DNA from: Labilithrix sp.
Lineage (GTDB): Bacteria > Myxococcota_A > Polyangia > Polyangiales > Polyangiaceae
Length of the DNA: 64,000 bases
Direction: 5' to 3'
Assembly: GCA_019637225.1 (NCBI GenBank)
Contig: JAHBWC010000042.1
Coordinates: 1 to 64,000 of the forward strand
Below are positions 11,248-64,000 of the stretch, in pieces. The notes beneath the pieces were generated by a model. The model was not told the DNA's origin, did no database searches, and saw only the letters and a program-made list of their open reading frames with translations. How positions within the stretch are numbered: position 1 is the stretch's first letter; the number at the start of each line of letters is the position of its first letter. Both the position numbers and the translations under genes were made by a program.

Positions 11248-12839
11248 CGGCGGTGCCCCTTCTCCGCCGTCGAGGCGCCCGTCGAAGGTTCGCGCCGGAA
11301 CATCCGGAGCATGCGCTCGGTGACGAGGAAGCCGCCGGCGATGTTGATCGCCGCGAAGAGCGCGGCGAGGGCGCCGAGCACGCTCGCGGCGTCGAGTGTG
11401 CTCGAGACCTGGAGCATGCCGCCGATGATGATGATGCCGCTGATGGCGTTGGTGACGCTCATCAGCGGCGTGTGGAGCGCGGCGGTCACGCTCCAGATGA
11501 CCTGCCAGCCGACGAAGCACGCCAGGATGAACACCGTCGAGTGCTGGAGCAGGTCGGACGGCGCGAAGCGCCCGGCGACGAAGAGCGCGACGATGACCCC
11601 CATGCCGCCCACGGTCGTGCCCCACGCGCGGCGCGTCGGAGAGCGGATGTCCTTCTGCGCCGGCTTCGCCTCGGGCGCCGGGGGCACGCGCGGACGCGTC
11701 GACGCGCGCGCCGGCGGCGCGACGGCCTTCGGCGGCGGACGCGGCAAGACCTCGCCGGCGTGCGTGACGAGCGCGGGCCGGATGACGTCGTCCTCGAGGT
11801 CGACGTGGAGCTTCGCGCCGTCGACGATCTCGGCGAGCAGGTGGACGACGTTGTTCGCGAAGAGGCGGCTCGCCGACGCGCCCATCCGGCTCGCGAGGTC
11901 GGTCACGCCGACGATCGTGACGCCGTGACGCTCGACGATGTCGCCCGGCACGCAGAGCTCGCAGTTGCCTCCCTGCTCTGCGGCGAGGTCGACGACGACC
12001 GAGCCGCGCTTCATCGCGACGACCGCCTCTTCCTTCACGAGGATCGGGGCCTTCTTGCCGGGCACGAGCGCGGTCGTGACGATGACGTCGACCTCGGCGG
12101 CCTGCGCGCGGAAGAGCGCCATCTCCGCGGCGATGAACGCCGGGCTCATCTCCTTCGCGTAGCCGCCGCCGCCCTCGCCGTCCTCCTCCACCTCGACCGT
12201 GAGGAACGCCGCGCCAAGGCTCTCGACTTGCTCCTTCGTGGCCTTGCGCGTGTCGAACGCGCGCACCTCGGCGCCGAGCGCCCTCGCGGCCGCGACCGCG
12301 GCGAGCCCCGCGACGCCGGCGCCGATCACGAGCACGCGCGCGGGCGGCATCGTCCCCGCCGCCGTCACCTGCGGGCCGAAGAAGCCCTGGTAGTGGTGCG
12401 CGGCCTCCAGCACGGCGCGGTAGCCGGCGAGGTTCGCCATCGACGAGAGCACGTCCATCTTCTGCGCGCGCGTGACGCGCGGGATGCGCTCGAGCGCGAT
12501 CGCCGACACCTTCCGCGCCGCAAGGAGCGCCGGGAGCGCCTCGTCACGCTCGGGCTGGAGCAGCGACACGAGCATCGCGCCCGTGTTGATCTTCGCGACC
12601 TCGGGGTGCGACGGCGGGCGGACCTTGATGACGAGATCGCTCTCGCCCCAGACGCTCTGGACATCGGCCATCGTCGCGCCGGCGGCCTCGTAGGCCTCGT
12701 CGGTGTAGCCCGATCCAGTGCCGGCGCCGCGCTCGATCACGACGTCGAGCCCCATCCCGCGCAGCTTCTTCACCGACTCCGGCGTCGCGGCGACGCGCCG
12801 TTCGCCCGCGTAGATTTCCTTCGGCACACCCAGTCGCAT
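11244..12839 (-). CDS. pntA: NAD(P) transhydrogenase subunit alpha (full length)
   Basis: 531-aa alpha subunit with an alanine-dehydrogenase-like NAD-binding domain: [20 protein letters not shown] at the start, [12 protein letters not shown], and the Rossmann loop [21 protein letters not shown] Pro/Ala-rich linker (about 385-425) follows, then four C-terminal membrane helices (for example [14 protein letters not shown]). It is thus the fused PntA form, as in E. coli (510 aa), not the split PntAA/PntAB form. ATG 12839 has GAGGAA 8 bases upstream; an earlier frame start adds a non-conserved stretch. The 216 bp upstream (12840-13055) should hold the operon promoter. Confidence 0.95.
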
Positions 12840-58629: not shown

Positions 58630-59322
58630 TCACCGCGCGCTTCGCCGCTTCGACGTCTGCTTCGGGCTCCTCTTCGCCCGATGCGCGGCGGCCAGCTTCT
58701 TCTGCACCGAGACGAGCCGCGCATGCAGCTTCTCCGCGGCCCGCGGGGTCATGCTTCCGCGCAGGACCAGCAGCACACCGTGCATCAAGTGCAGGTTCCA
58801 GCCCTTCACGTCGACCTCGCCGCGCAGCCACAACGTCAGCCCGGCGCGATACTCGAGGTGGAGCTGGCGCGCCAAGAGCGCAGGGTCGATGTCCGCCGCG
58901 AGCTGACGGCGCGCCTCGGCCTCCTCGAGCGCGTCGTGCCAGAGATCGGTGAAGCGGTCGAGGAGCGCCGGCATCAGCATGTTCGTCGACACCACAGCCG
59001 AGAGGAGCGGGCGGAAGAGCCGCTCGTCGCGCGCGTAGGTGAGCACCGCTCGGCGTGCCAGGCCGAGCACCCGCTCGACCGGATCCGTCTCCACGTCGTC
59101 GGCGATGCGCTGGCGCTGCTTGCCGAGGTCACGCTCGAGCAGCGCCCAGAGCACCTGTCCCTTCGACCCGAACAGGTTGAACGGCGTCGCGGGGCTCACG
59201 CCCGCCTTCTCGGCGAGCTCGCGCATCCCGAACTGGATGTCGCCGCGGCGCCGGATCAGCTCCTCGGCGGCTTCGAGGATCCTGTCTCGACGAACCTGCT
59301 TTCCGACCTCGTGAGCGCTCAC
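58630..59322 (-). CDS. TetR-family regulator
   Basis: 230 aa. The N-terminal helix-turn-helix is ILEAAEELIRRRGDIQFGMRELAEKAGVSPATPFNLFGSKGQVL; the C-terminal region is the variable ligand domain, with a basic tail. GTG 59322 starts it, 9 bp after the preceding stop, so it is the last gene of the four-gene set running leftward from 62176. Two palindromes of the type TTAGAGCGCGCTCTAA upstream of that set and of the divergent acyl-CoA synthetase are its probable operators. Ligand likely an acyl-CoA or the pathway substrate, by analogy only. Confidence 0.9.
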   Translation of the reverse strand: MSAHEVGKQVRRDRILEAAEELIRRRGDIQFGMRELAEKAGVSPATPFNLFGSKGQVLWALLERDLGKQRQRIADDVETDPVERVLGLARRAVLTYARDERLFRPLLSAVVSTNMLMPALLDRFTDLWHDALEEAEARRQLAADIDPALLARQLHLEYRAGLTLWLRGEVDVKGWNLHLMHGVLLVLRGSMTPRAAEKLHARLVSVQKKLAAAHRAKRSPKQTSKRRSAR

Positions 59323-59331
59323 ACGCCGCTT

Positions 59332-60282
59332 CTATTCAAAATCGAAGACGTCCGCCATACGCGCGAACAGATCGAGGACGCTCGACGACGACGGCCTGCC
59401 CGAGAGCTCGGCGTAGAGGCGATCGACGGTGACGACGATGCGCTCGCTGTCCGTCCATTCCGCATACTCCTTGAGAGGGATGTCGCGCGCCGCGTCGAAG
59501 GCGCTCATGCCGGCGTCGTAGCGGACCTTCGCCTCGTCGCGCACGTACTCGAGGTATCCCCGCACCAGTCCTGCGCCGGCGCGGTCGACGATGGGCCCGT
59601 GGCCGGGCACGACGTAGTCGACGTCCATCGCTTCGATCCGTCTGCAGGCGTCGATCCAGCGTTGCACCGGACCGGCCCACATGATGGGCGTGCCGCCGAT
59701 GAAGAGGATGTCGCCCGTGAACACGACGCGATCGGCCGGGACGTGCACGAGCATGTCGCCCTTCGTGTGCGCGGGCCCGACCTCGATGAGGTGCACGTCC
59801 TTGTCTCCGACCTTCACCGTGAGCTCGCGCTCGAACGTGCGCGTCGGCGGCGTATGGCGGATGCCCTCGAAGTCGAAGGCGTCGAAGCAGTACCGCAAGA
59901 ACCGCCCGGCATCGGTGGGGTCCTCGCGCGCGTCGCGCATGATCTCCGCGAGCAGCTCCGGCGTGACCTCCTCCATCTCCTCGGCCGACGCGTGCGTGGC
60001 GATGATCTCGGCCCCCTCGATGAGCTGGTTGCCGTGACAGTGGTCGCCGTTGGCGTGGGTGTTCACCACGGTCGCGATCTTCTTCGCGCGCGGCTCGGCG
60101 TCACGCATCGCCTTCAACATCTGCGCGGTGAGCGGCAGATCGAAGAGCGTGTCGACGAGCAACGACGCCTCGTGGTCGGCGATGAGGCCGGCGTTGCTCC
60201 AGCCCCACGAGCCGCTGTGCGCGATCCACCCCCACGCGCCGTTGCCGAGGTCGACGAGCCCTTGTCCGAGCTTCTGCTTCAT
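59332..60282 (-). CDS. Metallo-beta-lactamase-fold hydrolase
   Basis: 316 aa cytosolic MBL-fold protein. The metal motif reads THANGDHCHG (His76, Asp80, His81), with Asn78 where HxHxDH proteins have His, as in the HxNGDHxxG subfamily. EVGPAHTKGDMLVHVP supplies the next ligand (His), FTGDILFIGGTP the Asp, and YVVPGHGPIVDR the last His. Roles in this subfamily range from thioester or ester hydrolysis to sulfatase-like activities. ATG 60282 overlaps the stop of the upstream gene (ATGA), so it is cotranslated with the fumarylacetoacetase-family gene. Confidence 0.92.
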   Translation of the reverse strand: MKQKLGQGLVDLGNGAWGWIAHSGSWGWSNAGLIADHEASLLVDTLFDLPLTAQMLKAMRDAEPRAKKIATVVNTHANGDHCHGNQLIEGAEIIATHASAEEMEEVTPELLAEIMRDAREDPTDAGRFLRYCFDAFDFEGIRHTPPTRTFERELTVKVGDKDVHLIEVGPAHTKGDMLVHVPADRVVFTGDILFIGGTPIMWAGPVQRWIDACRRIEAMDVDYVVPGHGPIVDRAGAGLVRGYLEYVRDEAKVRYDAGMSAFDAARDIPLKEYAEWTDSERIVVTVDRLYAELSGRPSSSSVLDLFARMADVFDFE

Positions 60283-61280
60283 GCGTCCTCCGTCGTGATC
60301 CGATTGCGCAGCACGCCGATGCCCGAGATCTCGAGCTCGACGACGTCGCCGGGCTTCAGGAACCTGCCCAGCTCGAGCCCGCAGCCGTTGCCGACCGTCC
60401 CCGAGCCGAACACCTCGCCGGGGTAGAGGGTCTCCGAGCGACTCGCGTGCACGATGCAGTCTTCGACGCGGTGGTACATCGTCTCGGAGCTGCCCCGCGA
60501 CCACTCTTCGCCGTTCACGCGCGCGACCATCGTGAGGCGCGCGGGATCGACCTCGTCCGCCGTGACGATGCACGGCCCCATCGCGTTGCCGGTGTCGAAG
60601 TCCTTTCCCTTCGCAGGACCGAGCTGTCCGGGCATCTCGCGTCCCTGCGCGTCGCGCGCCGAGAAGTCGTTGAAGATCGTGTAGCCGAACACGTGGTCGA
60701 GCGCGTTCTCGCGCAAGATGTCGCGGCCGGCGCGTCCGATCACCGTCGCGAACTCGAGCTCGTAGTCGATGAGCCGACTGTAGCGAGGCCAACGCACGTC
60801 GTGGTCCGTGCCGATCACGCTCATGCGATTCGCCTTGTAGTAGACGGGGTGCTCGTACCAGACGTCGGGCAAGGCGTAGCGGCCCTCTTCGCGCAGCTTC
60901 TTCTTCGTCGCCTCGGGGTCCGGCGTGCGGCTCGCCTGGGTGTCGTAGAGGTTCTGGATCGCCTGCTTCAGGTGCAGCTCGAAGCAGAGAAAATCGCGAA
61001 TCTGGGTGGGTCGAGGCAGCGGCGCGAGGAGCGTCGTCGACGCGCGATCGAGGCAGGCGCCGTCCGGCCCGCGCCGCTCGGCCCAGGCGAGCGTCTCCGC
61101 GGCGAGCGCGAGCCCCTCGGGGCCCGCCTCGATCAGGTCGAGCATGCTCGCGAACGCCGGAGCCGGCTGCGCTCCACCGAGCGCGCGCGCGCCGGCGAGG
61201 TCCACGATGCGCTGGTCGTCCGCGAAGAGCGCGCCGAGTCGCGCGTCGCCGCGCTCGCCGACGAACGTGACGAGCTTCAC
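60279..61280 (-). CDS. Fumarylacetoacetate hydrolase family protein
   Basis: 333 aa, FAH fold, cleaving or hydrating beta-diketone-like acids. The C-terminal catalytic part carries the metal residues in YELEFATVIGRAGRDI and NDFSARDAQGREMPGQLGPAKGKDFDT, then GPCIVTADEV and GSGTVGNGCGLELGRFLKPGDVVELE. The N-terminal part (LVTFVGERGDARLGALF) is the shorter FAH-type leader. Members include 2-oxo-hept-3-ene-dioate hydratases and oxaloacetate decarboxylases. GTG 61280 overlaps the previous stop. Its neighbours suggest degradation of an oxidised aromatic or branched acid; substrate unknown. Confidence 0.93.
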   Translation of the reverse strand: MKLVTFVGERGDARLGALFADDQRIVDLAGARALGGAQPAPAFASMLDLIEAGPEGLALAAETLAWAERRGPDGACLDRASTTLLAPLPRPTQIRDFLCFELHLKQAIQNLYDTQASRTPDPEATKKKLREEGRYALPDVWYEHPVYYKANRMSVIGTDHDVRWPRYSRLIDYELEFATVIGRAGRDILRENALDHVFGYTIFNDFSARDAQGREMPGQLGPAKGKDFDTGNAMGPCIVTADEVDPARLTMVARVNGEEWSRGSSETMYHRVEDCIVHASRSETLYPGEVFGSGTVGNGCGLELGRFLKPGDVVELEISGIGVLRNRITTEDA

Positions 61281-62176
61281 GGTGCGCTCCACACGCGCGG
61301 GAACGCCTCGCACTCGAGCGAATCGCCTTCGTTGAGCGCGTGCTTCTGATGGGGCTGCGGCGGCGCCATCTTGTTGAAGCGGTAGGTGACGTCGTCTCCG
61401 ACGTACCGGAACGATCCCGCGCGCCGCGCCTTGTCGGTGTAGTTCGGCCCGGATCCGTGCACGAGCCGGCTGTGGTGCACCAGCACGTCGCCGGGCTTCG
61501 ACGTGTACGTGACGATGTCGTACTCGCCGCGGTTGCCCTCGATGTCCGGCAGGCGCACCGCGCCGTCTTCCTTTTGGCCGAGACCGAGCTGATCCAACGT
61601 CGCTTGGTTGGCGAAGTTGTTCGGCAAGAACGACTCCTTCCAGCGATGAGAGCCGCGCACGTACTCCATCGGGCTGGCGTCCGCGTCGACGACGTCGGGA
61701 GACACCCACATCGCGCAGGTCTGCGTGCCGGCGAGGTGGTAGTACGGCTCGTCGGTGTGAAACGCGGTGTACTGCTTCGAACGCGGCTCCTTGATGAGGA
61801 CCTGGTCGTCGTAGAAGCAGACCTTCTTCGCGCCGAAGAGCCGGCCGGCGATGTACCCGAGCGGTGACTCGAGCGCGAAGCGGCGCAGCCACGGCGTCGT
61901 CGTCCACGCGCCGATGACGGTGAGGAAGCGACCCGGATTCTCGAGCGCCTGCGCGCGCGCGTTCGTCAGCTCGCCCATGCCTTTCAGCTTCTCGGCGAAG
62001 TCCGTGATGTCGTAGCTCACGGCCTTGCCCCATTGCTTGTAGATCGCATCCTCGATGGCGGCGCCGAGCTCACCGAGCCATGCGTCGCCGAGGATGCCCT
62101 CGAGGCGAACGGCGCCCGTCTCGCGGTACTGGTCGATCTCCGCCTGGGTCACGTCGCGCAGCAATCCTGAGATCAT
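61277..62176 (-). CDS. Phytanoyl-CoA dioxygenase-family protein (Fe(II)/2-oxoglutarate)
   Basis: 299 aa. The jelly-roll iron site is visible: His140 and Asp142 in AFHTDEPYYH and His240 in LVHGSGPN, and Arg251/252 nearby for 2-oxoglutarate. WVSPDVVDADASPMEYVRGSH is typical of the PhyH group. It hydroxylates an unactivated carbon, but members vary widely in substrate (lipids, antibiotics, small metabolites). ATG 62176 has AAGGAG with six-base spacing. It is the first gene of the leftward set; the palindrome at 62212 lies 36 bp upstream. Confidence 0.93.
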   Translation of the reverse strand: MISGLLRDVTQAEIDQYRETGAVRLEGILGDAWLGELGAAIEDAIYKQWGKAVSYDITDFAEKLKGMGELTNARAQALENPGRFLTVIGAWTTTPWLRRFALESPLGYIAGRLFGAKKVCFYDDQVLIKEPRSKQYTAFHTDEPYYHLAGTQTCAMWVSPDVVDADASPMEYVRGSHRWKESFLPNNFANQATLDQLGLGQKEDGAVRLPDIEGNRGEYDIVTYTSKPGDVLVHHSRLVHGSGPNYTDKARRAGSFRYVGDDVTYRFNKMAPPQPHQKHALNEGDSLECEAFPRVWSAP

Positions 62177-62211
62177 CGCTCGCTCCTTGTCGGGGGTACG
62201 AAGTAGATCTT

Positions 62212-62227
62212 TTAGAGCGCGCTCTAA
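62212..62227. promoter_or_regulatory. Probable TetR operator (leftward arm)
   Basis: Perfect 16-bp palindrome TTAGAGCGCGCTCTAA, 36 bp upstream of the dioxygenase ATG. A near-identical second copy lies 121 bp away before the divergent gene. Suits the TetR encoded at 58630. Confidence 0.8.
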
Positions 62228-62332
62228 CTTCGATCAACACGCGTGAGACCCGACGCGCAGCGTCATTGCCTGCGAACGCTCCAACTGTATGAAAATCGGC
62301 CCCGCGACGCAGCGCGCCAGACGCACCCCGAC

Positions 62333-62348
62333 TTAGAGCGCGCTATAA
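62333..62348. promoter_or_regulatory. Probable TetR operator (rightward arm)
   Basis: TTAGAGCGCGCTATAA, one base different from the perfect palindrome at 62212, and 54 bp upstream of the acyl-CoA synthetase ATG. One TetR protein would thus control both arms. Confidence 0.78.
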
Positions 62349-62401
62349 CTCTTCAGTCGCTTCGGCTTGCATCGACTCCGCTCGCTGTCGATGATTCGTC
62401 C

Positions 62402-64000
62402 ATGACCACCGACGTCTCCGGACGCATCGACGCCTTGCTCACGCGATATCGCTCGAGCGATCTGTCCGTAGCGCGCGCGCTCTGTGACGATCACGATCCC
62501 GCGGCGACGGCATGGCGCTTCATCGGCGCCGATCTGTCGGCCCGCGATCTGACGTACGGCGAGCTGCGCGCGGGATCGGAGCGCTTCGCAGCCGCTCTCC
62601 GTGCGCTCGGCGTGAAGGAGGGCGATCGCGTCGCCACGCTGATGGGAAAGAGCCGGGCCTACGTGATCGCGCTCCTGAGCATCTGGCGCCTCGGCGCCGT
62701 GCACGTCCCTCTCTTCACCGCGTTCGCTCCGGCGGCGATCGCGACTCGGCTCTCGTCGAGCGCAGCGCGCGTCGTGGTGTGTAACGAGCAGCAGGAGCCG
62801 AAGCTCGCGCCCGGCCCCGACATGCCGGACGGCGCGTGGCAGGTGGTGACGATGGGCCGGGGCGGTGGGGGCGCGCTGTCGTACGACGAGCTGACGGCTC
62901 ACGCCGAAGAACGCGTGCCCGCGGCGGCGCTCGGAGGCGACGCGCCGCTCATCCACATCTCGACGTCAGGGACGACGGGTACCGCCAAGGGCGTCGTCGT
63001 GCCGAGCAAGGCGCTCGCGACGTTCCAGACCTACGTCGAGCTCGGCTTGGACCTCTCGCCGGCCGACGTGTTCTGGAACGCGGCCGATCCCGGCTGGGCG
63101 TACGGGCTCTACTACGGCGTTCTGGCGACGCTCACGACGGGCGTGCGCAGCGTGATGTTCGAGGGCGCCTTCACGCCCGAGACGACGCTGGCGATCCTCG
63201 CACGTGAAGGCGTCACCAACTTCGCGGCGGCGCCGACCGTGTACCGCGCGCTGCGCGCGGCGGCGCTGCCACGACCCGTCGGGCTGCGGCTGAGGCGCGC
63301 CTCGAGCGCGGGCGAGCCGCTCACCCCCGATGTGAACGACTGGGCGCGCGAGGCGCTCGGGGTCGAGGTGCACGACCACTACGGCCAGACCGAAGCAGGC
63401 ATGCTCGTGAACAACCATCATCACCCGTCCCTGGCGAGGCCCATCAAGCCAGGCTCGATGGGGCAGGTCATGCCCGGATGGAGCGCGGCGATCCTCCACG
63501 AGGAGCGTGACGAGGTGCTTCCTCCGAACCGGCCGGGACGCTTGGCGATGGACCTGCGAGCGAGCCCGCTCGCGTGGTTCGCGGGCTACGAAGGCGATCC
63601 GGCGAAGTCGGCCGAGAAATTCGCGGGCGCGGGTCGCTACTATCTCACCGGCGACGTCGCGAGCGTCGACGAGGACGGCTATTGCACGTTCTCGTCGCGC
63701 GACGACGACGTCATCATCATGGCAGGGTACCGCATCGGCCCGATCGAGGTCGAAGCGACGTTGGCGCGGCATCCGGCCGTCGCCGAAACGGCGGTGGTCG
63801 CGGCGCCGGACGCGCTGCGCGGCGAGGTCGTCGAGGCGTTCGTCGTGCTGCGCGCAGGGGCGACGGCGTCCCCCGCGCTCTGCGACGAGCTCCAGGCGTG
63901 GGTGAAGACGCGCTACGCGGCGCACGCGTACCCGCGACGCGTGCACTTCGTCGACGCGCTCCCCAAGACCCCGAGCGGCAAGCTGCAACGCTTCGTGCTC
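62402..64000 (+). CDS. Acyl-CoA synthetase (AMP-forming), runs off the window
   Basis: ANL-superfamily enzyme, 533 residues visible; the frame is still open at the window edge, only a few residues beyond the last motif. P-loop-like ISTSGTTGTAKG (about 186-197), YGQTEAG (from 327), LTGDVASVDEDGYCTF with the AMP Asp, and PKTPSGKLQR with catalytic Lys527. The family activates a carboxylate as acyl-AMP then acyl-CoA; acetate, propionate and medium acids are all possible. ATG 62402 (MTTDVSGRID) is the start used; no strong ribosome site. It faces the TetR-controlled set across 226 bp with twin operators. Confidence 0.9.
   Translation, partial: MTTDVSGRIDALLTRYRSSDLSVARALCDDHDPAATAWRFIGADLSARDLTYGELRAGSERFAAALRALGVKEGDRVATLMGKSRAYVIALLSIWRLGAVHVPLFTAFAPAAIATRLSSSAARVVVCNEQQEPKLAPGPDMPDGAWQVVTMGRGGGGALSYDELTAHAEERVPAAALGGDAPLIHISTSGTTGTAKGVVVPSKALATFQTYVELGLDLSPADVFWNAADPGWAYGLYYGVLATLTTGVRSVMFEGAFTPETTLAILAREGVTNFAAAPTVYRALRAAALPRPVGLRLRRASSAGEPLTPDVNDWAREALGVEVHDHYGQTEAGMLVNNHHHPSLARPIKPGSMGQVMPGWSAAILHEERDEVLPPNRPGRLAMDLRASPLAWFAGYEGDPAKSAEKFAGAGRYYLTGDVASVDEDGYCTFSSRDDDVIIMAGYRIGPIEVEATLARHPAVAETAVVAAPDALRGEVVEAFVVLRAGATASPALCDELQAWVKTRYAAHAYPRRVHFVDALPKTPSGKLQRFVL

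Follow-up and report, generated by a model that had tools for sequence, protein, structure and literature searches.

The right-hand end of the 64,000-nucleotide stretch of Labilithrix sp. DNA analyzed here (the window) carries a divergent set of oxygenase, hydrolase and CoA ligase genes together with a TetR-family regulator, and raises the question of what these enzymes jointly process and whether a single regulator governs both arms. The window lies on contig C120 (68,856 bases) of an assembly of 8,225,195 bases that is 83% complete. From one 225-bp intergenic region, four genes are read leftward on the minus strand, encoding a PhyH-family Fe(II)/2-oxoglutarate oxygenase (61277-62176; 299 aa), an FAH-superfamily enzyme (60279-61280; 333 aa, GTG start), an MBL-fold metallo-hydrolase (59332-60282; 316 aa) and, as the terminal gene of the arm, the TetR-family regulator (58630-59322; 230 aa, GTG start). 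In the opposite direction an AMP-forming acyl-CoA synthetase (ligase 1; 544 aa) runs on the plus strand from an ATG at 62402, in a reading frame already open from 62243, to C120:64036, beyond the window. A preliminary description of the locus had called for inspection of the sequence past 64000, and this inspection extended the right arm by a second AMP-forming CoA ligase (ligase 2; C120:64033-65505, plus strand), which shares a 4-bp GTGA overlap with ligase 1, and by an SDR (C120:65623-66366, plus strand) located approximately 120 bp after ligase 2. The block spans about 7.7 kb (C120:58630-66366) and comprises seven proteins. Its left arm had been described as joined by 4-bp overlaps, which is correct for PhyH/FAH (GTGA) and FAH/MBL (ATGA) but not for MBL/TetR, where a 9-bp gap intervenes.

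The five family assignments originally made for the window were confirmed by Pfam scores exceeding the curated cut-offs, with matches of TetR to PF00440 (TetR_N; 33.9 bits, cut-off 24), MBL to PF00753 (91.1 bits), FAH to PF01557 (188.8 bits, in a C-terminal FAA_hydrolase domain), PhyH to PF05721 (89.1 bits) and ligase 1 to PF00501/PF13193. The two ligases differ in type, ligase 1 resembling acetate/short-chain enzymes and ligase 2 resembling FadD. No family match was obtained for the C-terminal part of the TetR protein.

The proposal of common control was based on two near-identical 16-bp palindromes, one per arm, and both were found exactly where the preliminary description had placed them. 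Palindrome 1, TTAGAGCGCGCTCTAA (62212-62227), is perfect and lies 35 bp upstream of the PhyH start as the candidate operator of the left arm; palindrome 2, TTAGAGCGCGCTATAA (62333-62348), contains one asymmetric base and lies 53 bp upstream of the ligase 1 ATG as the candidate operator of the right arm. The likeness between them extends over 18 bp (94%). At zero or one mismatch the whole assembly contains just these two sites, and at two mismatches there is one more place; within the window, a scan allowing up to three mismatches gave four strand-matches, all at the two palindromes, compared with 0.40 expected. Under a looser criterion, which accepted any two near-palindromes within 400 bp of each other with a likeness of 15/16 or better, 7 of 200 Markov-simulated windows also qualified; palindromicity by itself therefore carries less weight than genome-wide rarity and placement. 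The twin palindromes are not a product of chance.

The symmetry-breaking base of palindrome 2 yields TATAAC (62344-62349), which, read by eye, is a plausible -10 element. An AAGGAG ribosome-binding site is present between palindrome 1 and the PhyH start. A sigma-70-like candidate, TTGATC-17-TAAAAG (62209-62237, minus strand; 8/12 matches), has a spacer containing most of palindrome 1, but the sigma-70 reading here is weak, as about one such pair is expected by chance in the region, and a stricter sigma-70 scan of the region returned no promoters.

The position and rarity of the palindromes suggest that they would be bound by the TetR protein. It is unlikely that they instead serve another regulator, or that TetR controls one arm and the two arms are neighbors rather than one regulon. 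Such an arrangement would fit the distal location of the TetR gene in the left arm, approximately 2.9 kb from the palindromes, but TetR is the sole regulator gene in the block, near-identical palindromes precede both arms, and the sites are unique in the genome at up to one mismatch. No TetR orthologue was found in the genomes searched, including congeners, and phylogenetic footprinting of the palindromes in a second genome was therefore precluded. Overall, these results support the original picture: a gene set of catabolic appearance, arranged divergently, that includes a TetR gene and has matching palindromes in front of its two arms, one each. A regulatory plan of a single repressor and two sites is ordinary; the combination of enzymes is unusual.

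Among these enzymes, the FAH protein had been labeled as diketone-cleaving, a designation that proved too specific. The residues H103, E174, E176, D205, K224 and K226 are invariant in seven relatives, and we take E174, E176 and D205 to be the metal ligands. The superfamily also includes decarboxylases, tautomerases and dehydratases, and its C-C hydrolase subtype is associated with a lid His-Glu dyad of the NYxxHxxE type. This motif is unrecognizable in the protein encoded here; the invariant H103 has Q/N three residues on, and its correspondence to the dyad His is uncertain. None of the NCBIfam equivalog cut-offs for fumarylacetoacetase, HpaG or the rhamnonate-pathway hydrolases was reached, and diketone cleavage is therefore one option beside decarboxylation and tautomerization.

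The MBL hydrolase has a confidently predicted MBL fold (pLDDT 91.5), for which Foldseek returned 8d2z, a Burkholderia MBL-superfamily protein, as the best match, followed by chlorothalonil dehalogenase (6uxu). Its metal motif, H76-x-N-x-D80-H81, departs from the canonical HxHxDH, and all 15 of the members compared, including the relatives from loci L084-L135, share the form H-x-[N/D]-x-D-H with Asn/Asp replacing the second His, which makes an altered metal site possible in this subfamily. The dehalogenase among the PDB fold neighbors brings up a role in detoxification rather than nutrition, in which an electrophilic or xenobiotic acid would be hydroxylated, hydrolyzed and made harmless. We regard this as very improbable, given that fold likeness to the dehalogenase is common to many MBL enzymes and that the two CoA ligases and the SDR point to beta-oxidation.

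In the PhyH protein, the metal-binding triad H140-x-D142 ... H240 and the arginines R251/R252 align with MysH, which together with SnoK is the nearest relative of solved structure, both belonging to natural-product pathways. Close relatives were absent from the genome-contig scan and from viral contigs, and plasmid homologues were about 30% identical and located in unrelated contexts. A single-protein fold model of PhyH (pLDDT 33.6) was meaningless and was discarded. Two more PhyH-family matches occur on other contigs of the same genome (G000:C121:33935-34579 and G000:C48:5004-5294).

To place the block in a broader genomic setting, we compared it with the loci of the best 80 FAH relatives (50-60% identity) in a one-genome-per-species collection; as these loci were picked by FAH similarity, the counts describe nearest relatives only. 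The same MBL type (at least 40% identity) was present in 13 of the 80, distributed over Binatota and Alpha-, Beta- and Gammaproteobacteria, and ligase 2 (at least 40% identity) in 8, with MBL and ligase 2 occurring together in 4. In several loci (L084, L089, L093, L096, L135) the MBL gene is located 30-140 bp from an FAH match, and another genome of the phylum (L176) encodes an MBL-FAH bicistron with a 4-bp overlap; this was the exception among 377 genomes of the phylum, where the PhyH and MBL homologues whose neighborhoods were read did not otherwise adjoin FAH. PhyH was found in none of the 80 loci, nor was any relative of the TetR protein, and one of the recurring FAH+MBL loci (Sphingomonas sp. 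Root720, L104) contains a P450. Because PhyH is missing from the recurring loci, we place this oxygenase outside the core as an addition at the present block, and different oxygenases may have been fitted into the recurring module. A search of other genomes for the same gene set, as had been suggested, did not recover the complete set, but did recover FAH+MBL, at times with a CoA ligase, in catabolic contexts. The papers searched contained nothing on the gene set or the palindrome, in agreement with the earlier statement that no described pathway has exactly these genes. The same FAH subgroup is also used by a different catabolic cluster in many Pseudomonas species, where L101, L107, L109-L113 and similar loci have two FAH genes, two SDRs and an AMP ligase in a conserved layout.

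The neighbors of the recurring FAH+MBL pair include TRAP (DctP/DctM), branched-chain and other ABC transporters, TonB receptors, TetR regulators, amidohydrolases and acyl-CoA dehydrogenases, and the pattern points to FAH, MBL and CoA ligase as a recurring module for organic-acid catabolism. These neighborhoods also bear on a biosynthetic interpretation of the block, in which PhyH and the SDR would tailor a natural product, the ligases would load acyl starters, and FAH and MBL would edit intermediates. Such a role is consistent with the presence of two AMP-forming ligases and with the natural-product function of MysH and SnoK, but we judge it improbable: the genes of the block include no PKS, NRPS or carrier protein, and FAH+MBL recur beside solute uptake and acyl-CoA dehydrogenases rather than biosynthetic cores.

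The distribution of the block among congeners provides insight into its origin. Four congeners share the left flank at 74-93% DNA identity, with synteny ending at approximately 58573, just short of the TetR stop codon, and what lies beyond this point in these four encodes none of the block's seven proteins. PhyH, TetR and ligase 1 had no close match in the congeners searched, where the best FAH identity was 46-48%. Given that none of the sampled congeners carries the block, although four retain the syntenic left flank, the block was probably acquired in this lineage, which is the simplest reading of these comparisons. Matches to the right flank in the nearest congener lie on other contigs, and some local rearrangement seems to have occurred as well; since the two flanks of that congener lie on different contigs, rearrangement or loss stands as an alternative to insertion. 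Bin contamination was also considered as a source of the block and is unlikely for this contig, whose left flank shows 89-93% DNA identity to a congener. A cobalamin riboswitch (Rfam RF00174, 73.8 bits) lies on the minus strand immediately to the right of the SDR, at C120:66587-66795 (L002:12588-12796). In the nearest congener (G004:C360), the counterparts of the neighboring segments L002:12408-12644 and 12654-12828 are approximately 1.28 kb apart, which suggests that most of the gene behind the riboswitch has been lost here.

Taken together, we consider it probable that the block is an acquired, TetR-repressed catabolic island built on the recurring FAH+MBL+CoA-ligase module, to which PhyH has been added. 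In the working model, TetR dimers would bind both palindromes and keep both arms off, and TetR would repress itself as well, because its gene is the last of the left arm; the substrate or its CoA ester would then free TetR. The PhyH oxygenase would hydroxylate the substrate, FAH would cleave, decarboxylate or tautomerize a 2-oxo or 1,3-dioxo acid, and the MBL hydrolase would open an ester, lactone or thioester. The released acids would be turned into CoA thioesters by the two ligases, and the SDR would oxidize a hydroxyacyl intermediate for entry into beta-oxidation. The oxidize-cleave-activate order in this model, which the preliminary description also proposed, is tentative. A more specific version, which we hold only tentatively and consider doubtful, is that of a new route of catabolism that begins with the attack of a PhyH-type oxygenase on an aliphatic or alicyclic acid and continues through enzymes of a new FAH subgroup and of an MBL subfamily whose metal site is altered (H-x-N/D-x-D-H), with a single TetR and twin operators controlling the whole. 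If the island is as proposed, it would provide a testable context for a widespread and apparently undescribed FAH+MBL pair, and the repressor and its two sites, combined with an inducer screen, would offer a direct handle on the substrate.

Comparison with known systems helps to define what is shared and what is particular to this block. With the homogentisate and homoprotocatechuate pathways (fumarylacetoacetase, HpaG/HpcE) the FAH protein has in common the superfamily domain and the metal carboxylates; however, it scores 49.7 of the 375 bits required for fum_ac_acetase and 99.0 of 276 for the HpaG C-terminal model, and the block, unlike those pathways, is without a ring-cleaving dioxygenase. 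MysH and SnoK are distant from PhyH in sequence and unrelated in gene context, although the H-x-D...H and Arg positions of MysH match those of the block protein. Greater similarity is found in the FAH+MBL loci of a Rhizobiaceae MAG (L085), a Hyphomicrobiales MAG (L087), Pararhodobacter (L095) and a Pseudosulfitobacter plasmid (L016), where FAH is 53-59% and MBL about 48-50% identical to the block proteins. Ligase 2 relatives of about 42-51% identity are present in the first three, that of Pararhodobacter being partial, and none was found on the plasmid. A TetR-family gene is nearby in the Rhizobiaceae and Pseudosulfitobacter loci, as in the block, but all four loci are without PhyH, lack a relative of the block TetR and have another gene order. 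TRAP transporter genes, absent from the block, are present in L085, L095 and L016. The Sphingomonas sp. Root720 locus (L104, 3-12445) can be described as a sister arrangement with another oxygenase: it combines FAH (55%), MBL (55%) and a relative of ligase 1 (46%) with a TetR of another subfamily (TetR_C_30) than that of the block, an SDR, TonB receptors and LysR regulators, and a cytochrome P450 replaces PhyH.
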